Below are positions 7,049-50,582 of a stretch of 64,000 bases of DNA, piece after piece. The notes beneath the pieces were generated by a model. That model did no database searches. It worked only from the letters and a program-made list of their open reading frames with translations, and was not told where the DNA came from. Source of the stretch: Verrucomicrobiia bacterium (GTDB lineage: Bacteria; Verrucomicrobiota; Verrucomicrobiia; Limisphaerales; CAIMTB01); contig JAHCBA010000032.1 of NCBI GenBank assembly GCA_019634625.1, forward strand, positions 1-64,000, in the 5' to 3' direction. Position numbers and translations under genes: made by a program. Numbering within the stretch: the stretch's first letter is position 1; each line of letters starts with the position of its first letter.

Positions 7049-7344
7049 ACCTTCTTCTTTCTGGGCAACGCCGGGGGGACTCCACAAAAAATCCCCTTCC
7101 CTGCGCATGAGAAGAGGATCCAGAAACCGTCCGGCCTTCCTCTCATTTTCCCCGACACCCGCCGGGCTGGAATTGGCACCTGGTCACGGCCGCGTTGCCG
7201 GTGGCCGCCGGTTGCCGTGGGGTCCTCGGGCCAGTCCCTCACCCACTCGCAATGAGACCCTTTCTCGCGAAAGGACCCGCGTTGTGCCGGACCTCACCCC
7301 GCCCTGTCAATCGGATTCCTCCCCGATATCGAAAGCAAAACGTC

Positions 7345-7588: not shown

Positions 7589-7663
7589 GGCGGGGTAGCC
7601 AAGTGGTAAGGCAGGGCTCTGCAAAAGCCCCATTCGTCGGTTCGATTCCGACCCTCGCCTCCA
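7589..7663 (+). tRNA. tRNA-Cys (GCA)
   Basis: A full cloverleaf can be drawn: acceptor GGCGGGG pairs with CCTCGCC, the anticodon arm is GGGCT-CTGCAAA-AGCCC with anticodon GCA, and the T arm is GTCGG-TTCGATT-CCGAC. The discriminator is U and the CCA end is encoded. It marks the left edge of the accessory region. Confidence 0.95.
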
Positions 7664-35568: not shown

Positions 35569-35979
35569 TCACCCTTTCGGTTCAAGCCTTGTCACGTCCG
35601 TGAATCCGTCCAGGTCCTGGTCGAAGGAGATGGCGGGAATCTTCCTCGCAGCCGCCTTCGCGGCGATCAACGCGTCCGGAAAATCGATCGGATGCGCTCC
35701 GTAACGCACCAACGCGTCGCTCAACACGGCCGGTTCGTGGGCACTGATGAACGGGTTGTGCATAAAATCCAGCAGCGCCGCCGCAATGTCCCCCCGGGCG
35801 CGGCGATAGACCTTCTCCATGACGAAGGTCACCTCGGCCACGGTGGCATCGAGAAGGAGGAGTTCCCAATCCCGCTCCTCGGCGCGCCGGAGGAAACCTG
35901 TCGTCGCAGGGCTTTGCTTGGGGTCGTCCTGCAAGAAGAACCGCAGCAGCACATTGGCATCGAGGACCCCGGCCTTCAT
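35569..35979 (-). CDS. VapC-type PIN-domain toxin
   Basis: 136 residues. LDANVLLRFFLQDDPKQ holds the first PIN Asp, TVAEVTFVMEKVY the conserved Glu, and DFPDALIAAKAA and SFDQDLDGF the later Asp residues, all in place. An RNA-cleaving toxin is expected. It overlaps the AbrB-type antitoxin gene by 4 bp. Confidence 0.88.
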   Translation of the reverse strand: MKAGVLDANVLLRFFLQDDPKQSPATTGFLRRAEERDWELLLLDATVAEVTFVMEKVYRRARGDIAAALLDFMHNPFISAHEPAVLSDALVRYGAHPIDFPDALIAAKAAARKIPAISFDQDLDGFTDVTRLEPKG

Positions 35980-36239
35980 CGCTTGGCGTGCTTCCGGCGG
36001 TAATGCTCAGCCTTCACCCGTTCGATGGCAGCCTTTTCCTCCCCACGGTTCACCACCGGCATGTCGTCGGTCCTGAGACAGCCCGCCAGCGCAGTGATGC
36101 CTCGGACGGGGATGACCGTCAGAACGCCGTCGACAACCGCCCAGCGGAGACGGTGTCCAATGGCCAGAGAAGGAACCTCCTTGCGAATTTCCTCCGGGAT
36201 GGTGACCTGCCACTTCGAGGTGATAACCACTGACGTCAT
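35976..36239 (-). CDS. AbrB/SpoVT-type antitoxin
   Basis: 87 residues from ATG 36239. TSVVITSKWQVTIPEEIRKE is the swapped-hairpin AbrB DNA-binding domain. The acidic and basic C-terminal tail should hold the VapC toxin. It probably represses the operon. Confidence 0.88.
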   Translation of the reverse strand: MTSVVITSKWQVTIPEEIRKEVPSLAIGHRLRWAVVDGVLTVIPVRGITALAGCLRTDDMPVVNRGEEKAAIERVKAEHYRRKHAKR

Positions 36240-36268
36240 GGGCACAATCGTACCCGGACGTACTGTTC

Positions 36269-36672
36269 TTACGCAAGGCACGTCGTAAGACTAAAGAACC
36301 TCCGCACCGATCCGACCAACCCCGTGGCCTCCTCCAGAAACGCGTGCTCGAAGGCGCTCGCATACGCTGCCACCGAGCCTTTGGACAGCCGCAGCCGACG
36401 GGCCGTCTGGCGCCAATCCACCACCGCGGCCAAGACCTCGCGCAGAATCGGCTTCGCCTCGGCCGGACGGAGACCGAATCGCGGAGCCGCGTCCAGAGCG
36501 ACGGCGACGCACGGGGCTTCCTGTTCCTCCGTCACCGCGGTCTTCGGCGTTTGCGCGCGGTCCATCTCCGGAACCGGGTCGAGGCCGTAGGCCGGTGAGA
36601 GCGACCAATGCCCGGATCTTCGCATCAGGAATCCGTGGTTGCGGAGATGGTCGTCGTCGTTGCTTGCCAGGC
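36269..36672 (-). pseudogene. HipA-like kinase, C-terminal fragment
   Basis: The frame begins without a start at SNDDDHLRNHGFLMRRSGHW followed by SLSPAYGLDPVPE, the strongly conserved HipA segment containing the catalytic-loop N and D positions. It ends at a stop at 36269. At least two thirds of HipA is missing, cut where the neighbouring VapC gene begins. Confidence 0.8.
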
Positions 36673-36678
36673 AACTCC

Positions 36679-37098
36679 TTACCCTTCAGGCAAGAGTGGC
36701 ACCTGTTCCGCCTTTGCGGCCGCCCGCAACCCATTGTCCAGAGACCCAAGCGCCACACCGTGCCGGATCGCCGCCTCCAGGTACGCCGCATCGTAAATGC
36801 TCAGCTTGTGTTTCCGAGCCAGTGCATGGGCGCCGCTCCACGCCTCCTCGAACGCCGAGGCGTCCACCTCGATGGGAAGCGCCTTCAGATGGGCGAGATG
36901 CCGGTGGCTTTCAGCCGAAGTGATGCGGTTCCTGCGTTCGGCCATCAGGAGTCCGTTGGCGACCTCCCAGCGCCAAAGCGCGGGCACATGGGCCACGGCT
37001 CCGTTGCCGAGGCTGTCCAGAATCGCATCGCTCTCTGGGGTCGCTTCGTCTTCGATCACAAACGTCAGCGCCAAAGAGGAATCCAGAACCAGATTCAT
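36679..37098 (-). CDS. VapC-type PIN-domain toxin
   Basis: 139 residues. LVLDSSLALTFVIEDE holds the first Asp, WRWEVANGLLMAERR the Glu, and LSIYDAAYLEAAIRHGVALG with a later SLDNGL the remaining acidic residues, a complete VapC pattern. It overlaps its antitoxin gene by 4 bp. Confidence 0.9.
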   Translation of the reverse strand: MNLVLDSSLALTFVIEDEATPESDAILDSLGNGAVAHVPALWRWEVANGLLMAERRNRITSAESHRHLAHLKALPIEVDASAFEEAWSGAHALARKHKLSIYDAAYLEAAIRHGVALGSLDNGLRAAAKAEQVPLLPEG

Positions 37099-37346
37099 TG
37101 ACGTCCTTCGTTGATCAGGTCCTTGACCCGGAGCTTTGGCAGGCCGCGCGGGTTCAACAGACTCCGCGACGCCTTCATGTCCGCGATGGTCCGCCGGACA
37201 TCCTCCAGACTCGGGCGACCGGCAGGCACAAGCTGGGCCGCCTCCGCGCCGTGGAGGGTGATGGAGAAACTCTCACCGCGGCGGACGCGGTCGAGCAACT
37301 CGGAGAACTTCGCCTTCGCTTCGGAGGCCGGAATGGTCGTCGGCAT
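37095..37346 (-). CDS. Phd/YefM-type antitoxin
   Basis: 83 residues. TIPASEAKAKFSELLDRVRR plus GESFSITLHGAEAAQLVPAG is the Phd/YefM fold, and the C-terminus with MKASRS...KDLINEGRQ is the toxin-binding tail. An AAGGTG ribosome-binding site lies 5 bp before the ATG. Confidence 0.9.
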   Translation of the reverse strand: MPTTIPASEAKAKFSELLDRVRRGESFSITLHGAEAAQLVPAGRPSLEDVRRTIADMKASRSLLNPRGLPKLRVKDLINEGRQ

Positions 37347-37608
37347 GGTTTCACCTTAGGTTGACTGATTTGACCGGTCTCTGACCAGTTTATCCGTCGC
37401 CTCGTCCACTCGCAACCCCGTCTGCGAATCCTCCGGGAACTGCTCATCGGCCCGATGGCCGCGCGGGTCGAAGTGGTCGGCGTGGCCACCGACGATCCAC
37501 GACGCGCCTACACGCATAACGCAGTCTCCATCATCCTGGTGCATGCTCCCCTTCCGCTGCCCGGAGCGGCGTCAACGGAAGGGTTTCCCAGGATTGACGC
37601 CGGGATCA

Positions 37609-37630
37609 TGTTATACATCCTTGTGCAACA
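37609..37630. promoter_or_regulatory. candidate operator of the 37.6 kb toxin-antitoxin pair
   Basis: TGTTATACA and TGTGCAACA form an imperfect inverted repeat touching the antitoxin start codon, and TTATACAT can serve as a -10 region. The position suits repression by the Phd-type protein. Confidence 0.35.
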
Positions 37631-37878
37631 TGAAGACTGCGACGCTGCGTCAACTGCGGCATGAGTTCGGTTCCGTGCTGGCCCTGGTGGAGCAGGGAGA
37701 GGCCGTCGCGATCACCAAGCGCGGAAAGCCGATCGCTGTCCTGTCGCCTCCCGCACGGGCGAAGACGCCCAAGGCCAAGCATCGTCCGGACTTCGCCGCA
37801 CGCCTGAAGCGGATCTATGGCGACACGATCGTTCCCGGAGACGTTGTGGTCGAGGAGCGGCAAACGCACCTTTCGTGA
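37630..37878 (+). CDS. Phd/YefM-type antitoxin
   Basis: 82 residues. TATLRQLRHEFGSVLALVEQ then GEAVAITKRGKPIAVLSPPA is the Phd DNA-binding half; the rest is the toxin-binding tail. The VapC gene follows 37 bp downstream on the same strand. Confidence 0.88.
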   Translation: MKTATLRQLRHEFGSVLALVEQGEAVAITKRGKPIAVLSPPARAKTPKAKHRPDFAARLKRIYGDTIVPGDVVVEERQTHLS

Positions 37879-37915
37879 TGGCTCCGTGGCGCCATCCGAG
37901 AAAGCGACCACCTTG

Positions 37916-38347
37916 ATGGCCTACGCCGATTCGAGCTTTTTGGCTCGTGTCTACACGCCCCACGCGGATTCCGTAAAGGCATTGGGCTGGATGCAGAAGG
38001 CGAAGGATCCGTTGCCTTTTACGCCGTTGCATCGACTCGAACTCCGCAACGCCATACGGCTTCGCGTCTTCCGCGGAGAGATCAGCGCCGAGCAACGGAA
38101 ACTGGCACTGCTGGAGGTCGAATCGGATTTGGACTCCGCCATCCTTACCCACACCCCCATCCCTTGGACGGAAGCATTCCGCGAAACCGAGGAACTCGGT
38201 GCGAAACACACGGAAGACCTCGGGGTACGCAGCATTGACCTGCTCCACGTCGGGATTGCCATCGCGTTGAAGGCAACGGACTTCCTAACGTTCGATACGC
38301 GGCAGGGGATTCTCGCGAGGGCTGCCGGACTCCGGGTGAGGCCGTGA
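37916..38347 (+). CDS. VapC-type PIN-domain toxin
   Basis: 143 residues from ATG 37916. MAYADSSFLARVYTPHADS supplies the first Asp, LHRLELRNAIRLRVFRGE the Glu, and SIDLLHVGIAIALKA and FLTFDTRQGIL the later Asp residues. Third intact toxin-antitoxin module within 2.8 kb. Confidence 0.87.
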   Translation: MAYADSSFLARVYTPHADSVKALGWMQKAKDPLPFTPLHRLELRNAIRLRVFRGEISAEQRKLALLEVESDLDSAILTHTPIPWTEAFRETEELGAKHTEDLGVRSIDLLHVGIAIALKATDFLTFDTRQGILARAAGLRVRP

Positions 38348-38780: not shown

Positions 38781-39030
38781 GGCGCCATCCAGACCTTCGG
38801 CCAATTGATCCACTGCCATCCCCACATCCACGCGTTGGTGACCGAGGGGGTGTTCCTGCCGGACGGCACGTTCCTGGCGTTGCCCAAGCTGGCGAGCGAA
38901 CCGTTCCTCAAGCTCTGGGAACAGGAGGTCTTCGAGCTGCTCCTGGCCGAGGGTAACATCACCGAAGAGGTCGTCGCGAACGGGCGCTCCTGGAAGCATT
39001 CGGGCCTGCGGCTGGTACTCGAACAAGACT
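38778..39030 (+). mobile_element. IS91-family transposase fragment
   Basis: A short frame reads FGQLIHCHPHIHALVTEGVF, LPDGTFLALP and later GRSWKHSGLRLVLEQD, the HUH motif (HIH) region of IS91/ISCR-type transposases and what follows it. Both ends are missing and the C-terminal Tyr residues are absent. It is a relic, joined directly to the DUF932 fragment. Confidence 0.72.
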
Positions 39031-39220
39031 CGCGGCCAAACGGCCAAACGCCGGCCCCCCGCCGCAGCGGCGATCCTGCCGGGGCGGCACTCCCCTACGG
39101 CCCGGGAGGCTCGGAAAGGCTCGGCGGCACTGATCCGGCAGGTCTACGAAACCGCGACCCCCAGCCGGGGGCCGATCGCCGCCTCCCCAACCGCACGGCT
39201 AGGTCCGACGAAGTGACGCA

Positions 39221-39254
39221 ACCCCACGGCCGTCCCACCGGGGACGGCCGTGGG
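39221..39254. terminator. 15-bp perfect hairpin
   Basis: CCCCACGGCCGTCCC-ACCG-GGGACGGCCGTGGGG lies between the IS91 relic and the low-GC insertion. It may be a terminator or a subterminal hairpin of an IS91-like element, whose ends often contain one. Confidence 0.45.
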
Positions 39255-39336
39255 GAGGATTCCACCTCGTCTCAGCCCGACGGTTGCCTTGAACTCCCCC
39301 TCCCGATCCGCCAGTCTCGGGACATGGCACAAAGGA

Positions 39337-39398
39337 AATTCCTATCAGTCCTATCAGTCCTATCAGTTAATTCCTATCAGTCTATCAGTTATCAGTAA
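39337..39398 (+). repeat. short tandem repeats of CCTATCAGT
   Basis: Four CCTATCAGT or CTATCAGT units plus two partial ones sit just left of the HAD-ATPase gene. A related AATTCCTATTAGTAAC is at 41147-41162, at the right boundary of the same insertion. Confidence 0.7.
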
Positions 39399-39425
39399 CA
39401 GTCGCATCCCGCCAGGAGTATGCAT

Positions 39426-41135
39426 ATGCGCTATTTAGCTCTGGCTGCTGATTATGATGGAACACTCGCCACCGAAGAACGCCTTAACACAGAAACCATG
39501 GCAGCCCTCAGGCGTCTTCGCGCCTCCGGCCGCAGGATCATTCTTGTCACGGGACGCCGGCTCGCGGATATAAACCGGGTCTGTCCGGATTGCGAATTGT
39601 TTGATTTTATCGTTGCGGAAAACGGTGCTTTAATTTACAATCCTCGATCCAGACAAGAAACGCTTCTTGCCGGCCCGCCGCCCACGGTATTTATTGAACA
39701 CTTGGAGAAGTCAAACATTCCTTTCGAGCGTGGGCGCATCATCCTGGAAACAACCCTGCCTTTTCACACTCATATCCTTCAGGCCATTCAGAAATTGGGA
39801 CTGGAACTTCTTATAATATTCAACAAAGGCAGCGTGATGGTCTTGCCTCCCGGCATCAACAAGGCGACGGGACTGGATTACGCGCTGCGGGAACTCGGAC
39901 TTTCCTTTCATGAGGCGGTAGGAATCGGCGACGCGGAAAATGACCACTCCTTTCTGGAACGTTGCGAATGCTCCGCGGCCGTGGCGAATGCAGTACCGAA
40001 GCTCCTTGAAGAAACCGACATCGTTATGCGCAATGAAGCGGGGCGGGGTGTCGTTGAGCTCATCGATGAATTAGTTGACAATGATTTGTCCAGGGTTTCG
40101 ATTAATCTCGAAAAACATTTTATCGCCGTAGGTCAAGGTGACGACGGAAAGAATGTCACCATCCCTCCCTACGGCATTAACGTTTTGATCGCCGGACCGT
40201 CCGCCAGCGGAAAGTCCACCATTACTTCGGGGATCATGGAGCGGCTGATGCATCAGGCTTATCAAATCTGTGTCGTGGATCCGGAAGGTGATTACGGGAT
40301 GTCATCAAAGAATTTGATCACCCTCGGCCATCAGCGGCACGCGGTTGAAGTCGGGGAGGCCATGGCCATTCTGGAGGACCCGAAGATCAATCTCAATGTC
40401 AATCTTTTGGGCTGGCCTTTGTCGGACAGACCCGCTTTTTTTGGAGAGTTTTTTCCAGGCGTTCGATCGTTAAGGACGCGCGCCGGTCGCCCGCACTGGA
40501 TCATTCTTGATGAAGCTCATCACATGCTGCCGAAGGAATGGGGACATCTTCAGGAAGCGCTGCCCTGGAAGCTGGGAGAAACGATCCTTGTGACCGTACA
40601 TCCGGGACAGCTGCCTGGCGGCATTCTGTCGCTGATGGATATTGTGATCGCCGTCGGACCTCAACCGGAGAAAACTCTGGGTGAATTTAGCAGCGCAACG
40701 GGCCTTGTGTTTAACAGCATCTCCTGTCCGGCCCATAGAAAAGGATACGCCGTTGTCTGGTTTCCCCGGCGTAAAGAACCTCCTGTTTCAGTGCGCATCA
40801 TTCCGGCAAGCGGCGAACACCTCCGCCATCGCCGCAAGTATGCCGAGGGCGATATGCGCCACAGCAGTTTTTATTTCCGCGGCCCCAATGGCCGGCATAA
40901 TTTGAAAACCCAGAATCTCGTCATCTTTTCTGTCATTGCGCAGGGTATTGACGAGGAAACCTGGCTCTATCACCTGTATCAGGGGGATTATACAAGGTGG
41001 TTTCGAGAGTCGATCAAAGACCCTTATCTTGCTGATCAGACCGAGCGTATCCAGCAGCGAAAAGGTTTAAAACCGGAAGAAACCCGGAAGCTTATTCTTA
41101 ATCTTATTGAGGCCCGATACACTTTACCGGAATGA
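39426..41135 (+). CDS. HAD-type phosphatase fused to a HerA/DUF87-like P-loop ATPase
   Basis: 569 residues from ATG 39426, 7 bp after an AGGAG; an ATG at 39420 is too close to it. Residues 1-220 are a Cof/HAD-IIB phosphatase: ADYDGTLA (nucleophile Asp), VTGRR, and GIGDAENDHSFL. Residues about 240-480 are a P-loop ATPase: IAGPSASGKSTITSGIM (Walker A), ICVVDPEGDYG, PHWIILDEAHHMLP (Walker B), as in HerA/FtsK-like proteins. The C-terminus is a charged helical domain (RFRE, LADQTERIQQRKGLKPEETR). G+C is near 50%, far below its neighbours, and the gene truncates the adjacent DUF1080-type gene. The function of the fusion is unknown. Confidence 0.85.
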   Translation: MRYLALAADYDGTLATEERLNTETMAALRRLRASGRRIILVTGRRLADINRVCPDCELFDFIVAENGALIYNPRSRQETLLAGPPPTVFIEHLEKSNIPFERGRIILETTLPFHTHILQAIQKLGLELLIIFNKGSVMVLPPGINKATGLDYALRELGLSFHEAVGIGDAENDHSFLERCECSAAVANAVPKLLEETDIVMRNEAGRGVVELIDELVDNDLSRVSINLEKHFIAVGQGDDGKNVTIPPYGINVLIAGPSASGKSTITSGIMERLMHQAYQICVVDPEGDYGMSSKNLITLGHQRHAVEVGEAMAILEDPKINLNVNLLGWPLSDRPAFFGEFFPGVRSLRTRAGRPHWIILDEAHHMLPKEWGHLQEALPWKLGETILVTVHPGQLPGGILSLMDIVIAVGPQPEKTLGEFSSATGLVFNSISCPAHRKGYAVVWFPRRKEPPVSVRIIPASGEHLRHRRKYAEGDMRHSSFYFRGPNGRHNLKTQNLVIFSVIAQGIDEETWLYHLYQGDYTRWFRESIKDPYLADQTERIQQRKGLKPEETRKLILNLIEARYTLPE

Positions 41136-41632
41136 CATGTTCTCAAAATTCCTATTAGTAACTTCAGCTTGGATAGGTCCGGAGCCAGGGGCATGGGCGG
41201 AAGTCGCCGTCCGGTAAACTGGAACTTCGTCTGCCCCTGGCCATTTGGGCCAGGTGTCACCTTGACCGACTTGAGCGTGTCTCCCTCCAGCGTGGCGGAG
41301 ATGGTCTCGACAAAGTCACCACCAAAGGGTCTTCGGCTCATGACCAACTTGCCGTCTTCGAGCCTGGCTGCAGGCAGCGGCCCGAAGGTGCCGTCCATCC
41401 TGACCAGCCTGGCCTTGAGCTGCCCCTGGTCTTCCTCGACCCCAAGCCAGGCCGGCCAGCCGCCCGGACGCGTGAGTCCCCAACTGCCGCAATAAGGGCT
41501 GTCGGCGGCCCGGGCATCACCGAGCCCCGCCCCCGTCAGGGCCGTGGTCCAAGCCGCCAGCGCCCAAACGGTCACGAATGCGGTGGCAGGAAAGCTCTTG
41601 GTCCTCACACCGATCTGCTCACGAGTCTTCAT
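41036..41632 (-). pseudogene. DUF1080-type exported protein, N-terminal part only
   Basis: From ATG 41632 a signal peptide (FVTVWALAAWTTALTGAGLG) leads to YCGSWGLTRPGGWPAWLGVE and ends with native sequence at APDLSKLK (about 41163), where DUF1080/3-keto-disaccharide hydrolase-like proteins normally continue. The next 40-odd codons are read antisense through the inserted HAD-ATPase gene. So the insertion removed the C-terminal domain. Confidence 0.75.
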
Positions 41633-41733
41633 AGCACCCGCCTTCACTTGTCAACGGACGATGGATCCACCAGCACCGACGGCCTGCGCATTCGGGGCTC
41701 TGAAGATGTGCCTGCCAAACCGGGATCGTCCGT

Positions 41734-42379: not shown

Positions 42380-44383
42380 ATGAAAGAGCCTCCCTCCCCG
42401 TCCAAGGCAACTTGCCCGATCTGCAGCGGCCCCATTCCGGCAGGAGCCAGGCTCGGCCTCTGCCCAAAGTGCGCCCTGACCGCCGCCGCTGCTCCAACCG
42501 AAGCCGGCGCGACCGGGGCGGATTGTCCACCTCCCCCCACCTTGGAGGCCGTTGCCGCGGCCTTTCCTCAGCTAGAGATCCAGGCCCTGATCGGCCAGGG
42601 GGGTATGGCGGCGGTCTATCGGGCGCGACAACTGAAGCTGGACCGGTTGGTGGCGCTGAAGTTGATGGCGCAACCCGCAGCGGGGGGGACCGATTTCACC
42701 GAACGCTTCCACCGGGAGGCTCGCGTGCTGGCCCGGCTCAACCATCCGGGCATCGTCAGCGTCTTCGATTACGGGGAAGCCGGTGGCTTCTTCTACCTTC
42801 TGATGGAGTACGTGGATGGTGTGAATCTGAGGCAGGCGATGAAGGCCAGCCGGTTTACCCCGGCGCAAGCCCTGGCGCTCGTGCCGCGCATATGCGAGGC
42901 CCTTCAATTCGCCCATAACGAAGGCATTCTCCACCGCGATATCAAGCCCGAGAACATTCTTCTCGACACCCGCGGCCGGCTGAAGATCGCCGACTTCGGC
43001 ATTGCCAAGCTCCTCGGAGACCGCGTTCCGGACACCACCCTCACCGCCCAGGGCCTCGCCGTCGGCACGCCCAATTTCATGGCGCCCGAACAATTGGAGC
43101 ACCCGGGAGATGTGGATCAGCGCGCGGACATCTACTCGCTGGGAGTTGTCTTCTACGAAATGCTGACCGGCGAGTTGCCCCTGGGTCGTTTCGCTCCCCC
43201 CTCGCAGAAGACTTCGGTCGACGCACTCGTCGACGAAGTGGTGCTGCGCGCCCTCGAACGAGAACGCGAGCGCCGCTACCACAGCGCCGGGGAGATGAAG
43301 ACCGAGGTGGAAGGCGTCACACCCTCGCCCGGCGCCGTCGGGGGCGCCGGTGGGCCAGTGCGGGTCGCCAAAGGCGCAGCTTCGAAGCCGGATTTTCTGC
43401 TTTGCCACCCCCGCCTGCCGAAGGTGGCTCAGGCGATCGTCGCCTACGCGGTCCTTGTCGTTCCCTTCCTCTGGGCGCTCAGCGTGACCTTGCGCCCGCC
43501 GCAATTCATCAAACCGGAGACCCCCGCTTCGGCCCATGTCCTCGAAGCGGCCTGGAGCTTCCTGGGCGAAGGTGTCGGCCGTTTCCTCACCATGGTGATG
43601 CTGGTGGCGGGCGGGTTGAAATTGCGGGTGCTTCGATCCGGGGGTCCGCGATGGCTTCGGGCTGCCATCTGGCTCCGACTCTGGCTGATCGTCCTGGGCG
43701 TGATCGTCACCACCTGGGTGATGGTCCTGGAGGGAAGCTCGGGCGGAGCCGTTCAGGTCGGCGCCGGATCGTCCCCGACGGCCTCGAGCGTGTTGCTCGC
43801 CCTCTGGATCCTGGGGACCGCGTTCGAGTTCGCCATGCTGGTCTGGCTCCGCCGGAACAGGACCTTGCTCGATGACCTCTGCGTCGAGGGCGTCGCGTCA
43901 CCGCCCGAGGTGGGTCCGTCCGGCACTGTGGTCCTCGAACGACGCGCCGATCCTGGTCCGCACACTGCCTCGTCCGGTCCCATCGCAGCCGCCCGGCCAT
44001 CGGCTCATTCCCCCGTGGCCGGGAGGATTTTTTGGGAGTCTCCCGTCGGTTTGGCGGTCGCTCTCCTGGCCTTCCTGGCGCTGTGCTTCCTGATACTAGG
44101 GCCTTGGATCGGGACGTGCACCGGCACGGACCTGCGCTCGCCGGTACCGGATGCGGTGGGAAAGCCGCTGGCGTTCCTGGCCTTGCTGCTGGTGACCTTT
44201 GGCGCGGTGGCGAAGGGCCACCGTTGGACGGCACATCGCCGCGTGGTCGAAAAGACGGTCGGGGAGTCCGCCGGCGGTCCCGAACCGACCGGCGGACCGA
44301 AAGGGGCGGTCTCGGCGGAACGGTCCGCGGGCGCGCTGCGAACGAGCGCGGCCTCTTCTCATGGTGACGCCGGAGGTGCATGA
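42380..44383 (+). CDS. Ser/Thr protein kinase (Hanks type) with zinc ribbon and membrane domain
   Basis: 667 residues. A CPIC...CPKC zinc ribbon (residues about 12-31) precedes a full kinase domain (about 65-315): the P-loop LIGQGGMAAVYRA, invariant Lys in VALKLM, catalytic HRDIKPEN, DFGIAK and the APEQLE activation-segment end. Then come several membrane helices (IVAYAVLVVPFLWALSV, FLTMVMLVAGGLKL, LWLIVLGVIVTTWVMVL, LAVALLAFLALCFLIL). It should phosphorylate cytoplasmic targets while anchored in the membrane. Stop overlaps the sigma gene (ATGA). Confidence 0.93.
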   Translation: MKEPPSPSKATCPICSGPIPAGARLGLCPKCALTAAAAPTEAGATGADCPPPPTLEAVAAAFPQLEIQALIGQGGMAAVYRARQLKLDRLVALKLMAQPAAGGTDFTERFHREARVLARLNHPGIVSVFDYGEAGGFFYLLMEYVDGVNLRQAMKASRFTPAQALALVPRICEALQFAHNEGILHRDIKPENILLDTRGRLKIADFGIAKLLGDRVPDTTLTAQGLAVGTPNFMAPEQLEHPGDVDQRADIYSLGVVFYEMLTGELPLGRFAPPSQKTSVDALVDEVVLRALERERERRYHSAGEMKTEVEGVTPSPGAVGGAGGPVRVAKGAASKPDFLLCHPRLPKVAQAIVAYAVLVVPFLWALSVTLRPPQFIKPETPASAHVLEAAWSFLGEGVGRFLTMVMLVAGGLKLRVLRSGGPRWLRAAIWLRLWLIVLGVIVTTWVMVLEGSSGGAVQVGAGSSPTASSVLLALWILGTAFEFAMLVWLRRNRTLLDDLCVEGVASPPEVGPSGTVVLERRADPGPHTASSGPIAAARPSAHSPVAGRIFWESPVGLAVALLAFLALCFLILGPWIGTCTGTDLRSPVPDAVGKPLAFLALLLVTFGAVAKGHRWTAHRRVVEKTVGESAGGPEPTGGPKGAVSAERSAGALRTSAASSHGDAGGA

Positions 44384-45168
44384 ACTTCGGTGCCATGGAT
44401 CCCTCGACCGCATCCGCCGGCCGGGAAACCCGGCCAGGGAACTTCGCCGCAACCCGCTGGACCCTCGTCCAGCGGGCACGCGGTGTTTCGCCGGAGGCCC
44501 GGGCGGCGCTCGGCGAACTGTGCGAAGCGTACTACGAACCGGTCCACGCCTTCATCCGCCAGCTCGAAGCGGATCCGGAGGAAGCCTGCGATCTGACGCA
44601 ATCCTTCTTCGCCCACCTGCTTTCCGGGCGGGCGTTCGCGGCGGTGGAACCGGGCCGCGGCCGTTTCCGCTCCTACCTGCTCGGCGCGGTGAAGCACTTC
44701 CTGGCCGAATCACACCGGACCGCCGCGGCCGCCAAGCGGGGAGGCGGGCAACGCCCGGTCTCCCTGGCAGACCGCGCAGGGATGGAGACCACGACCGAGC
44801 TGCAAGTCCCCGATCCGACCGGACCCGCGCCGGATGTGGTCTATGACCGTCAGTGGGCCGTCTCGCTCGTCGAACGCGCGGGAGAAATCCTCGCCGCGGA
44901 GTACGAAGCCAGCCAGGGGCCGGAACGCTTCGCCGCCCTTAAGCCCTGGCTCCTGGGAGACCCACGCACGCTCTCCCAGTCGGAGGCCGCCGGCCGTCTG
45001 GGACTGAGCGACGGCGCGTTCAAGGTGGCGATCCACCGGATGCGCCGACGCTTCCGCGAACTGGTTCGGGTGGAGATCGCCCACACGGTGGGCGACCCCA
45101 CACAGATCGAGGAAGAATTGCGTTACCTCGTCGAGGTCCTGGTCCGGAACGAGTCGGGCGGCGGCTGA
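44380..45168 (+). CDS. ECF-type RNA polymerase sigma factor
   Basis: 262 residues. Region 2 spans about 24-105 (TRWTLVQRARGVSPEARAAL, ELCEAYYEPVHAFIR, DLTQSFFAHLLSG, FRSYLLGAVKHFLA). Region 4 spans about 190-245 (TLSQSEAAGRLGLSDGAFKV, then AIHRMRRRFRELVR). The 60-residue insert between them is usual in the kinase-linked sigma group of Verrucomicrobiota and Planctomycetes. Coupled to kinase 1 by a 4-bp overlap, so the kinase may control it by phosphorylation. Confidence 0.92.
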   Translation: MNFGAMDPSTASAGRETRPGNFAATRWTLVQRARGVSPEARAALGELCEAYYEPVHAFIRQLEADPEEACDLTQSFFAHLLSGRAFAAVEPGRGRFRSYLLGAVKHFLAESHRTAAAAKRGGGQRPVSLADRAGMETTTELQVPDPTGPAPDVVYDRQWAVSLVERAGEILAAEYEASQGPERFAALKPWLLGDPRTLSQSEAAGRLGLSDGAFKVAIHRMRRRFRELVRVEIAHTVGDPTQIEEELRYLVEVLVRNESGGG

Positions 45169-45946: not shown

Positions 45947-46335
45947 CCAGGCTGTTCATGGTCCTCCCGCATCGGCAAACCACAGCGGGGGCAGTGCTGC
46001 CACTGCGTCCAGGTGTCGGGGTCGTTGTCGCTCTCGACGTTCCAGTCACATCCGCAGCGCGGACATCGCGCATCGGGTTTGGGCAGCAGGAATCGGCCGA
46101 TGATCGCGCCGATGCAAAATGTCGCCGCGGCCAGGCCCCAGGCGAGGCTGAGCCGGCTTTCGTCAAGATCCTCCCGGGATTGGAGTCCCCAGACGGCGAC
46201 TCCGACGACTCCGGCCGCCAGCAGGCAGGCACTCACCACGCGGCGGGAGCGCTGTCCGTGACAGAGCGCCGCACGTTTGCGGGCGACAACACCGTCCGCG
46301 AATGGCGGGCCAGGCTCGAGCGGGTTCGTTTTCAT
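45943..46335 (-). CDS. membrane protein with C-terminal zinc ribbon
   Basis: 130 residues from ATG 46335. Two helices (VSACLLAAGVVGVAVWG and LAWGLAAATFCIGAIIGRFL) precede CPRCGCDW...CPRCGLPM, a zinc ribbon. It has the same organisation as the next gene, with which it forms a small operon downstream of the sigma 2 gene (28 bp gap). Confidence 0.65.
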   Translation of the reverse strand: MKTNPLEPGPPFADGVVARKRAALCHGQRSRRVVSACLLAAGVVGVAVWGLQSREDLDESRLSLAWGLAAATFCIGAIIGRFLLPKPDARCPRCGCDWNVESDNDPDTWTQWQHCPRCGLPMREDHEQPG

Positions 46336-46363
46336 GCTCGCGAAGGAGTCGATGCCGGGCCGA

Positions 46364-47143
46364 TCACCCATCCCGGGTGGGCGCGCGCGCCAGCACGTCC
46401 ACGAGATAGCGCAGTTCCTCGTTCACCTGGCCGGTGTCGTCCACGGTCTGGGCGATTTCCTGCTTCACCAGCGCTCGAAAGCGCTGGCGCAGCCGATGCA
46501 CGGCAACCTTGACGGCGCCTTCGCTCGATCCGAGCTCGCGGGCAGCATCGGCCTGGGAGAGCGCGGGCACCTCACCCAACAGCCACGGCTTCAGGATGGT
46601 GAACTGCCGGCCTTTCCCGTCTCGAACCGATTCGTCGCCCAGCGCCGCCACGGCGCGATCGACGAGCGTGGTGGCCCAATGGCGATCGAAGAACGCGTCC
46701 GACGCAGGAGCTGCTGGATCAGGGATCGGCAGTTCGCTCGTGGTGTCGCCGCCTGCGCCGGCCTCGATGGAAACCGGCGCTTGGCCACCGCCGCGTTTGG
46801 CGGCGCAGGCGCGGTCCCGTTCACCGGCCAGGAAGTGCTTCACCACACCCAGAAGATAGGAGCGGAATCGTGCAGCCCCGGGCTCGACTGGGTTCAGGCG
46901 GCGTGCCGACAGGAGCTTCGCGAAGAAGCCCTGGGTCAGGTCGCGGGCGGCTTCCTCGCTCCGCCCCGAGCGTCGAATGAAGGCGAACACCGGTCCGTAA
47001 TAGGCCTCGCAGAGCTCGGCCAGGGCCAGCTGCGACTCCGCCGACGGGTCGCAGGCACGCCGAACGAGCGTCCAGCGCGTGGGGACGAAACGGCCTCCCG
47101 CCGGCGTCGACGTTCGCTCGGGATGGTGTGCAAGGGAGGTCAT
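46364..47143 (-). CDS. ECF-type RNA polymerase sigma factor
   Basis: 259 residues from ATG 47143. Clearly paralogous to the sigma factor at 44380: VPTRWTLVRRACDPSAESQL, ELCEAYYGPVFAFIR, DLTQGFFAKLLSARRLNPVE, FRSYLLGVVKHFLAGERDRA and region 4 ALSQADAARELGSSEGAVKV, then AVHRLRQRFRALVK. Positioned 34 bp after kinase 2. Confidence 0.92.
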   Translation of the reverse strand: MTSLAHHPERTSTPAGGRFVPTRWTLVRRACDPSAESQLALAELCEAYYGPVFAFIRRSGRSEEAARDLTQGFFAKLLSARRLNPVEPGAARFRSYLLGVVKHFLAGERDRACAAKRGGGQAPVSIEAGAGGDTTSELPIPDPAAPASDAFFDRHWATTLVDRAVAALGDESVRDGKGRQFTILKPWLLGEVPALSQADAARELGSSEGAVKVAVHRLRQRFRALVKQEIAQTVDDTGQVNEELRYLVDVLARAPTRDG

Positions 47144-47177
47144 TGCGGCAATTCCGCTTCGGGTTGGAGAGCGAAGT

Positions 47178-50100
47178 TCATGGCCAGAACTCGGGACCCC
47201 GGGACGGCGCTGCTGGCAGCCAACGACTCCCGGCCAGACAACCGGACGCCACCACGACCAACGTATGATGGACCCACCCGGTGGCGTCTCGCATCGACTT
47301 CCGTGGGGTCGCCGCGTCGGGACGGCCACCCGTGGCCCAGCGGCGCAACGTCCAGGCCGCCATGACGACCACGGCAACGCAACCGATCAGCACGGCGCCG
47401 GTGAAGACCTCCCCCTGACCAGGAGCCGGCTCCCATCCGAACGAGCGCGCCGCCCAGGCCAGCAGCGGCGGAAGCAGTCGGATCAACAGGCCGGTCGGGA
47501 CCCCCAGAAGGCCAATGATTGCCAACCGGGCACCGAGCGTCGTGCCTTGGCTCGCACGGATTTCCCGCAGCGCCGCCGAACCGAAGAACAGCGCGAGAAG
47601 GCCCACGAAGCCGCCGGTTCCCAGCACCAGGAGCTCCCTGGCGGACAGCGGGAAGCCAAACGGAGGCAGGCCGTCCGCTCCCAGCGAATCGTGGAGTTGG
47701 CCAAGAGCGCCGAGGACCAGCAGCCAGGAGGGGATGGCGCACAGAGCGCTGCTGATCGCCAACCAGGAGATCCGGACCGGGCCGGGCGGGCCACCCGGCG
47801 GTCGTTCGTGAGGGACGTCCTGAGCACTCGGCGGTTCGTCGCTCGTGACCGCATCGAGGTCCCCGCGGTGCAGCGCACGATTCGCCTGGAGGAAGCCCAG
47901 CGCATACCAGGCACTGGCGACTCCGAAGAGGACCATGCCGACACAGGCGAGCACAAAGAGGGCATCGGGGCCGCGATGGGCCAACGCCAGAGAACGCCAG
48001 ACCATGAGCGCGTCGCTGACCCCGAACGCCAGCAGCAGCGGTAGGGCCCGCCGATTCCATCCCGCCTGCGCACTCACCGACACGGCGGCAGGGTCGGAGG
48101 ACGATGGGTTCCTCCCGGTCAGAGCAGTGGTCGCGGCACGGATCGCATCAAACCAGCGAGCCACTTCCGCGTTGATCACGGCGGTCGACCGGCTTTCCGG
48201 AGGGATGGGTGTCAGGTGCACGATCCGGCTTCCCGGTCCGGATCCGAAGGTGATCGAGAGGAAACTGACCCGTCCGTATTTCATCACCCACGGGGTGCTC
48301 CATAGCTGAAACTGGCCAAGGCTCAGGTCGCGAATCTCCCTCAGTGGAATCATCACCCGTGTGTGCCAGGGGCTGAGAAATACCAGTTCACTGCCTTCCA
48401 ACCGCAACTCGCCCCGGCATTGGAAGATGTGCGCCTGCGGCCCTGGGAAGCTATTCCGCATCCGGTCTGGCGAAGAGAAGTAGCAGGGCGACCGCTTGGA
48501 TCCTGCCTCAAGGGAAACCAGGCTCTCGGGAGGCGAAGGGGACCCCGGCTTGAGGGACACATCCGCGGTGGAAGCCACGCCGGTTCCGCCTTCCGGAGTC
48601 GGGGGGTTCCCGGCGGCGTCGCGAGCCAGGCCGCGAGAAATGGCCTCCATTCGGAAGGCGACCAGCGCGACGGCCAACGCCAGAAACGCACCGAGCCCGC
48701 ACGCGAACGAAGTCGAGGCGACGTTCAACGCGATGCCCCCGGAGGTTCCCGGGCCAGGATCCGGGTGCCATCGTTCCAACCAGGGTTCGAAGGCTCCGAC
48801 ACTCCACTCGCACACCGGCCCCGCGGGCCCGGATCGCTCCGAAACCGAGAAGGACGCGAAGAAGATCGCCAGCACGCAGGCGGCGAGGATCAGGGCGTTG
48901 CGCACCACACTCCTCGCCGCGGGAACGACCCGAAGCCATCTCCGTTCCCACGCCCGCAGTTCCGGCGGTCGGGCGGTCAGCTTACCCATTCGTTGCCGCC
49001 ACCATCGCGCCGACAGCAGGATCGCCATCGAGAGCGCCGCCGTGAGCGGACCCCACATCCACTCACTCAACCGGTTGGGGAGTCTTCCCGCCGTCATCAG
49101 GGGAACGATGGCGAAGGCTACCGTGCAACCCGCCGCGGAGAGGAGGAACGCTTTCCCCAGTTCGATCCATGACCAACTTTCCGCTGTTTTTGCCCTTTCG
49201 ATGGGGAGCGTTCGGCCGGTCTCCCGGCGGATCGCTTCCTGAAGCGCGAGGGTCCAGTCCTGGACCAGCGCATTGGTCTCCCAAGGTGGCATCAGGGCGC
49301 TCTTCGCCGGCGTGAACAACAGCGTGCGTGTGGCGCCGCCGTCCTCGTGGGTTACCGCGAGGTAACTCAAGGGCACCGGCTTGGCCGACGCGGGGTAGTC
49401 CCCGTTGGCCAGGGACCAGATGGACCGCAAGGGGATGGTCACGGCCTGCCAACCGCTGCGGAAGGCCAGCGATTCCCGCTGCAGACGGAGTTCCCCCTCC
49501 GCCTCGTAGATGTTCACGAACCGCCCGCGGAAACTGCGCAGGTGCTCCGGGGTGCTGACGAAACACGCCGAAACCTTCGGCTCCCAATCGACCGCAGGTT
49601 CCGCGCGAGGAACTGCGGTCGCCGGCGGCGGGACGGAGGGCCGTGTGGATGTGATGGTCTCGACCTGCGCCTTCACCTCGGTGGCGGTCCGCTGTCGGCG
49701 CTCGCGTTCCTTCTCCAGGGTCCGCAGAACGACGTCGTCGACGCGCGGGTCCATCGGCGCCTTTTGGGATGGCGGCGCGAATCGGCCGATGGGCAGTTCG
49801 CCGGTGAGCATCTCGTAGAGCACCACCCCCAGCGAGTAGATGTCGGCACGCTGGTCCACCTCCTGCGGGCGTTCGAGTTGTTCGGGCGCCATGTAGTGGG
49901 GGGTGCCCACCGCCAGCCCGCTGCCGGTGAGGTTGGCTTCCGCCGTCGTGTCACCGAGGAGTTTCGCGATGCCGAAATCGACGATCTTCACCCGCCCCCG
50001 GGCGTCGAGCAGGATATTCTCGGGTTTGATATCACGGTGCAGGATGCCTTCGTCATGGGCGAATTGGAGGGCCTCGCAGATCCGCGGCACGAGGGCCAGC

Positions 50101-50582
50101 GCCTGGGCGGGCGTGAATCGCCCCGCCTCCATCGCCTGGCGCAGATTCACGCCATCCACGAACTCCATCAGCAGGAAGAAGAACCCTCCCATCTCGCCGA
50201 AATCGTGCACGCTGACGATCCCCGGATGATTGAGCCGTGCCAGGACGCGCGCCTCGCGGTGGAACCGTTCCGCGAACGCGGCCGACGTCGCCAGCGACGG
50301 CGACAACAGCTTCAACGCCACCCACCGGTCCAGCTTGGGCTGTCGCGCCTTGTAGACCGCCCCCATGCCGCCCGTGCCGATCAACTCCAGAATCTCCAGT
50401 TGGGGGAATGCGGCAGCCACCGAGGCCAACGTTGGGGGCACAGCCCTGGATGGCCTCGGATCGATTTCCGTAGCCATGGCCACGGCGGCGAGGGCGCACT
50501 TCGGGCAGAGGCCCTGGGTGGCCTCGCCGGGGATGTAGCCGCCGCATTTCGGGCAGCGAGTGGGTGAAGGCGGAGTGTTCAT
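47178..50582 (-). CDS. large Ser/Thr protein kinase with duplicated PH-like domains and membrane segments
   Basis: 1134 residues. An N-terminal zinc ribbon (CPKC...CPKC) and kinase domain (about 60-310) carry LIGTGGMGAVYKA, VALKLL, HRDIKPEN, DFGIAK and APEQLE, all intact and very close to kinase 1. Two related beta-rich PH/GRAM-like domains follow, at about 335-450 and 700-815; both contain GELRL, an xFxSxW stretch and IPLRxI. Hydrophobic helices lie between them and in the C-terminal 200 residues (AISSALCAIPSWLLVLGALG, ELLVLGTGGFVGLLALFFGS). Such duplication is unusual in this kinase group. Confidence 0.9.
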   Translation of the reverse strand: MNTPPSPTRCPKCGGYIPGEATQGLCPKCALAAVAMATEIDPRPSRAVPPTLASVAAAFPQLEILELIGTGGMGAVYKARQPKLDRWVALKLLSPSLATSAAFAERFHREARVLARLNHPGIVSVHDFGEMGGFFFLLMEFVDGVNLRQAMEAGRFTPAQALALVPRICEALQFAHDEGILHRDIKPENILLDARGRVKIVDFGIAKLLGDTTAEANLTGSGLAVGTPHYMAPEQLERPQEVDQRADIYSLGVVLYEMLTGELPIGRFAPPSQKAPMDPRVDDVVLRTLEKERERRQRTATEVKAQVETITSTRPSVPPPATAVPRAEPAVDWEPKVSACFVSTPEHLRSFRGRFVNIYEAEGELRLQRESLAFRSGWQAVTIPLRSIWSLANGDYPASAKPVPLSYLAVTHEDGGATRTLLFTPAKSALMPPWETNALVQDWTLALQEAIRRETGRTLPIERAKTAESWSWIELGKAFLLSAAGCTVAFAIVPLMTAGRLPNRLSEWMWGPLTAALSMAILLSARWWRQRMGKLTARPPELRAWERRWLRVVPAARSVVRNALILAACVLAIFFASFSVSERSGPAGPVCEWSVGAFEPWLERWHPDPGPGTSGGIALNVASTSFACGLGAFLALAVALVAFRMEAISRGLARDAAGNPPTPEGGTGVASTADVSLKPGSPSPPESLVSLEAGSKRSPCYFSSPDRMRNSFPGPQAHIFQCRGELRLEGSELVFLSPWHTRVMIPLREIRDLSLGQFQLWSTPWVMKYGRVSFLSITFGSGPGSRIVHLTPIPPESRSTAVINAEVARWFDAIRAATTALTGRNPSSSDPAAVSVSAQAGWNRRALPLLLAFGVSDALMVWRSLALAHRGPDALFVLACVGMVLFGVASAWYALGFLQANRALHRGDLDAVTSDEPPSAQDVPHERPPGGPPGPVRISWLAISSALCAIPSWLLVLGALGQLHDSLGADGLPPFGFPLSARELLVLGTGGFVGLLALFFGSAALREIRASQGTTLGARLAIIGLLGVPTGLLIRLLPPLLAWAARSFGWEPAPGQGEVFTGAVLIGCVAVVVMAAWTLRRWATGGRPDAATPRKSMRDATGWVHHTLVVVASGCLAGSRWLPAAPSRGPEFWP

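Follow-up and report, generated by a model that had tools for sequence, protein, structure and literature searches.

A HAD-IIB phosphatase-HerA-type ATPase fusion gene of foreign origin, flanked by IS91/ISCR-like termini in a Verrucomicrobiia genome

The window analysed here is a 64-kb stretch of DNA from a 6.74-Mb Verrucomicrobiia genome in 88 contigs (G000), for which bin contamination is given as 0.42%. It contains a single gene of unusual composition, with the remains of an IS91/ISCR-type element on its left and a truncated host gene on its right. From left to right, the features of the locus are as follows, where C12 and C5 are further sites in the same genome.

38781-39005, plus strand: IS91/ISCR-type (Y2_Tnp, HUH) transposase fragment, cut at both ends (PF04986, E 4.6e-6; NF033538 transpos_IS91, E 1.4e-4).
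39152-39350, plus strand: 3' (oriIS-side) region of an IS91-like element, with 83% identity to C12 and 81% to C5, found in part at G003:C8.
39336-39349, plus strand: left oriIS-like terminus, AAATTCCTATCAGT, also at C12 (exact), C5 and G003:C8; its core TTCCTAT is common to the oriIS of ISCR1 and ISCR27.
39345-39398, plus strand: array of full and partial terminus repeats (CCTATCAGT units), with a second full copy at 39368-39381 and ATCAGTAAC at its end.
39426-41135, plus strand: HAD-IIB phosphatase-HerA-type ATPase fusion gene, 569 aa from ATG 39426 or 571 aa from ATG 39420; 52% G+C.
41146-41159, plus strand: right oriIS-like terminus, AAATTCCTATTAGT, in direct orientation and flush with host coding sequence; the next bases are AACTTC.
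41160-41647, minus strand: N-terminal remnant of a DUF1080-type host gene (PF06439), whose frame continues through the junction and meets a stop within the insert, at 41036.

The open reading frame at 39420-41135 was confirmed in the window. We prefer ATG 39426 as its start, with AGGAG 8 nt upstream and with the family alignment, in which members begin MRYLALA. The G+C content of the ORF is 0.52 against ~0.65 around it, the lowest among the long ORFs of the window (the next is 0.59), in agreement with the value of about 50% that a first-pass annotation had reported for the segment. The same annotation had recognised both HAD motifs and Walker A and B in this one gene, and the family alignment bears this out. 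All four HAD motifs (DxDGT, the motif II T/S, the motif III K and the motif IV GDxxND) are present, and across 31 aligned sequences D11, D13, K148, G170, D171 and D175 are invariant and T44 nearly so. Walker A reads GPSASGKST and Walker B IILDEAHH; in the same alignment G259, S261, G264 and K265 of Walker A and E365 of Walker B are invariant, and D364 nearly so.

Residues 1-225 are a HAD-IIB phosphatase domain by profile matches to PF08282 and TIGR01484, the latter above its cut-off; the scores fall below the NCBIfam equivalog cut-offs, which thereby assign no substrate. An AlphaFold2 model of the protein has a mean pLDDT of 86.8. When this model is compared with known structures, residues 3-225 match the PH1421 phosphatase (1wr8; Z 27.8, rmsd 2.5, 221 aligned) and residues 231-474 match SsoHerA (4d2i; Z 21.6, rmsd 2.8, 226 aligned). 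The DUF87 sequence score of the ATPase part is below the Pfam cut-off, and the C-terminus gives a sub-threshold DUF5752 match only. The protein thus has the fold and four motifs of the HAD-IIB phosphatases (Cof type; archaeal phosphoglycolate phosphatase PH1421), but adds a C-terminal ATPase. What it shares with the hexameric DNA-pumping HerA ATPases, such as SsoHerA, is a RecA-like core that carries both Walker motifs (Z ~20-22, about 230 residues); the HAS-barrel position of HerA, however, is filled by the HAD domain.

Proteins of this kind are widespread. A search of other genomes, which the first-pass annotation had proposed, returned 245 candidate stretches in GTDB species genomes that encode a relative of the fusion, and these belong to a known family annotated as "HAD-IIB family hydrolase". 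Eighty homologous loci were kept for the family work, from Acidobacteriota, Pseudomonadota, Planctomycetota, Nitrospirota, Cyanobacteriota, Chloroflexota and others, and a single ~570-aa architecture is common to the 31 aligned members. The HAD-HerA fusion is therefore an established, widespread family and not novel in itself. Our literature searches found no relevant paper on DUF5752 or the HAD-HerA fusion, and no experimental work. Fusion relatives also occur in 12 plasmid records, frequently under the label HAD-IIB or HAD family hydrolase. Carriage on plasmids was considered and set aside (all 12 records are typed non-mobilizable), as was a phage origin, the fusion having no match in 50,697 phage records. 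In AT-rich hosts (L013, Candidatus Loosdrechtia; L021; L023; L083) the fusion gene lies 9-15 points above the G+C of its locus, which suggests repeated independent transfer.

Where did the copy in the window come from? In the family tree, it clusters with two Acidobacteriota metagenome-assembled genomes and one from Thiorhodococcus (Chromatiaceae), with an SH-aLRT support of 100. The only other full-length copy found in the window's order (G022) lies elsewhere in the tree, and 286 genomes of the class hold no other full-length copy, three of them matching the HAD half only. Relatives with the gene at the same locus, in normal composition, had been named in the first-pass annotation as evidence against an insertion; all four genus relatives examined lack the gene. 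From this placement beside Acidobacteriota and Chromatiaceae, and from the gene's absence in the genus and in nearly all of the class, we conclude that it was acquired by horizontal transfer from another phylum. The foreign origin proposed from the first reading is thus supported by both composition and phylogeny.

The host gene on the right has lost its PF06439 domain. PF06439, formerly DUF1080, is now the 3-keto-disaccharide hydrolase family, and the minus-strand gene aligns with homologues from its own genome and from the genus up to PDLSKLK. At this point, a domain boundary, the paralogue in the same genome continues into PF06439, whereas here the domain is missing, which confirms the earlier claim that the DUF1080-type gene is cut at APDLSKLK. 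No piece of the missing domain was found anywhere in the window; with no second half of the gene present, this is not a clean insertion that kept both halves. A comparison with an empty site in the genus found no orthologous locus, only DUF1080-type homologues at 30-40% identity.

On the left, the first-pass annotation had noted the lack of a transposase inside the segment. This is correct, yet directly beyond the segment's left edge stands the remnant of an IS91-type transposase. PF04986 matches this fragment above its gathering score, NF033538 is its best NCBIfam match, below cut-off, and its DNA is 95% identical to two pieces at C12. The window, C12 and C5 copies have transposase remnants, the 3' region and the terminus in common, and every copy of the 3' region terminates with AAATTCCTATCAGT, either exactly or with one mismatch. 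Inside the 3' region, a 15-bp perfect hairpin (CCCCACGGCCGTCCC/GGGACGGCCGTGGGG, 39222-39255) stands 109 nt upstream of the terminus motif, both in the window and at C12. The transposase C-terminus at C12 reads CPKCGATMRIIAFIE...VIEKIL, with its stop 277 bp before the terminus. For comparison, the ISCR27 oriIS, GCGGTTGAACTTCCTATACC, is found 236 bp after the transposase stop (PMC8894482), and the right end of ISCR1 reads GTGGTTTATACTTCCTATACCC (PMC13023784). Because the TTCCTAT core, the spacing and the hairpin are held in common, we identify the left repeat as the oriIS-side 3' end of an IS91/ISCR-type element. The likeness to ISCR1, ISCR27 and ISCR28 extends to the HUH (Y2) transposase, here a remnant, to the 3' hairpin and to a TTCCTAT-containing terminus a few hundred bp past the transposase stop; the terminus itself differs, being ACTTCCTATACC there and AAATTCCTATCAGT here. 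All IS91-like copies that we found are cut on the 5' (terIS) side. A PF04986 search of the genus found no intact copy of this IS: the intact Y2 transposases belong to other IS91-type elements, and their loci that were examined are without this terminus. Directly left of the IS91 debris, at 35569-38347, are three PIN-domain (VapC-like) genes, two of them beside Phd/YefM-type antitoxin genes.

The repeats that flank the segment, AATTCCTAT(C/T)AGT, are found at 39337, 39369 and 41147, and allowing up to 2 mismatches brings no further copy of AAATTCCTATCAGT to light in the window. With at most one mismatch, the 14-mer is found at six places in the 6.74 Mb, against 0.23 expected: two IS91-like ends (C12 and C5), a solo site (C33) and three sites around the fusion gene. 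About 7e-7 such 14-mers would be expected beside the right compositional break. The right terminus (41146-41159) consists of the 14-bp core alone, one mismatch included; neither the hairpin nor the ~180-bp 3' region of the real copies accompanies it. The first-pass annotation had called single-gene mobility with short flanking repeats noteworthy. As a distinct phenomenon this is not supported, since the repeats correspond to the 3' terminus of an IS91/ISCR-like element. Nor are short repeats a constant partner of the gene: the CCTATCAGT unit is present in 2 of the 80 homologous loci, no more than chance, which rules out that the repeats mark the ends of a unit peculiar to the fusion gene. We also downgraded the repeats as a pure host minisatellite, given that C12, C5 and G003:C8 show the sequence as an IS91-like 3' end.

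Within the order, solo termini with AAC behind them are a recurrent feature. The same three bases come next at C33, at G003:C8, at two sites in genome G011, at the right junction and where the left array ends, and may represent a target preference. G011 has five exact 19-mer termini, AAAGCAAATTCCTATCAGT (L145, L150, L153, L156 and L157), four of which share further upstream bases, GCGGAGCGTCCAG or close to it. A search of G011 gave no Y2 transposase match, and therefore the motif can exist without this transposase; the G011 termini are read as solo or MITE-like ends. Two sources are conceivable for the array of partial copies on the left of the fusion gene: oriIS may have been nicked repeatedly, with slippage, or the host's tendency to build 9-mer arrays may have produced it. 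Such tandem arrays of GGGACYGAT and its variants are found at C13:63213-63261, C17:82313-82361, C16:10941-10971, C4:185240-185270 and C67:11809-11848 (20 matches, against 1 in a control), and are possibly related to the CCTATCAGT units.

One-ended IS91 transposition normally mobilises the DNA adjacent to terIS. A passenger beside oriIS therefore needs a second ori. This is the arrangement in the two-oriIS sandwich of ISCR28, in which the enclosed gene is captured by virtue of the second oriIS (PMC12772301). As in ISCR28, the passenger here lies directly beside an oriIS, with a candidate second oriIS, the 14-bp core, beyond it, and the segment is best read as a passenger between two directly repeated oriIS-type ends. 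An IS91-like element with terminus AAATTCCTATCAGT stands on the left, and a second, direct copy of the terminus closes the segment on the right; in this model, rolling-circle transposition from the right oriIS would have carried the fusion gene, and possibly the left IS, into the DUF1080-type gene. Both a working oriIS at the right 14-mer and a rolling-circle event are inferred by analogy with ISCR28, and there are differences. The right ori is only a 14-bp core, the local transposase is only a fragment, and the G011 termini occur without a Y2 transposase, all of which are points against a sandwich; the passenger of ISCR elements is a resistance gene, whereas here it is a HAD-HerA gene. Altogether, we assign a probability of roughly 0.6 to this reading as a whole: a passenger gene for a HAD-HerA protein, acquired horizontally and now embedded in IS91/ISCR-type debris. 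The arrival is then explained by components already described and by an ordinary mechanism, and the protein is of a known kind.

Could the fragment have arrived without a transposase? Homologous or illegitimate recombination at the host 9-mer arrays, with a foreign fragment carrying a similar repeat, is the alternative that survives best, though we consider it unlikely. The unit of the arrays at C13, C16, C17, C4 and C67 resembles CCTATCAGT, an array of this kind forms the left flank, and 24 nt of that flank match the C17 array exactly. However, the AAATT stretch common to the IS91-like ends and to both boundaries is missing from the host arrays, the six 14-mer matches in the genome are all IS ends, flanks of this gene or the one solo site, and the right boundary lies inside coding sequence, not in an array. 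Less probable still is a chimeric metagenome assembly that joined a fragment of another organism into the contig: the genome is in 88 contigs, the insert differs in composition and phylogeny, and the ~60-bp repeat at the left junction is a typical misjoin site, but an assembler would not be misled by a repeat as short as the 14 bp at the right junction, and the bin has 0.42% contamination. Misassembly is unlikely because it needs two independent misjoins 1.8 kb apart, both on the end sequence of an IS that is present elsewhere in the genome.

What the passenger protein does can be approached through its neighbours, whose counts are approximate, the neighbour proteins having been called by a simple ORF scorer. 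Across the homologous loci we found no conserved neighbour gene or operon partner. Two Pfam surveys of the neighbours, read for their 25 commonest families, show none of NurA, SIR2 and DUF4297, the partners or effectors of HerA. In the nearest clade, universal stress protein is the commonest neighbour family, with 7 of 86 neighbour proteins, and the cluster holding one of these touches 6 of the 13 loci, which suggests a stress-related role. With no conserved partner gene, we read the fusion protein as acting alone: it would form a HerA-like ring with the HAD-IIB phosphatase on the outer side, at the HAS-barrel position, and the ring would couple ATP use to dephosphorylation of a small phosphoester, perhaps under stress. 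The ring, the coupling and the substrate are tentative, and we hold them with low confidence.

A role in anti-phage defence, with the HAD domain as effector, is a weaker alternative to the stress role. HerA ATPases associate with the effectors SIR2 or DUF4297, and among the structures that the HerA-like core of the model resembles are HerA chains from antiphage complexes (8xav, Z 20.9; 8wiv, Z 20.0). PADLOC gives matches to mad8 and HerA, and toxin-antitoxin-like PIN/Phd genes lie to the left. Yet the PADLOC matches are weak and cover the P-loop only, the commonest neighbours across the loci in the Pfam surveys include Usp, response regulators, Nramp and MgtC rather than defence genes, and the phage records hold no match. 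We regard a defence function as improbable; it concerns the protein's job, not the arrival of the gene.

The segment between the IS91-like termini is an environmental, non-resistance example consistent with IS91/ISCR-type sandwich capture, and it points to a conserved, phylum-crossing HAD-HerA fusion that is open to direct biochemical test. It is tempting to go further and propose a self-contained motor-phosphatase that spreads between phyla as single-gene cargo, in a lineage where 14-bp oriIS cores are enough to delimit passengers. We think this generalisation doubtful; if true, oriIS cores without a transposase or subterminal region would suffice to bound passenger genes. Elsewhere, the window has a SAM riboswitch (7140-7258, minus strand) and a tRNA gene (7589-7660, plus strand). 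To the right of the insert, at 42380-45168 and 46277-50582, lie genes for protein kinases, with a sigma-70 region 2 gene behind one of them; these kinase genes have many similar stretches across their own genome and the genomes of the genus.
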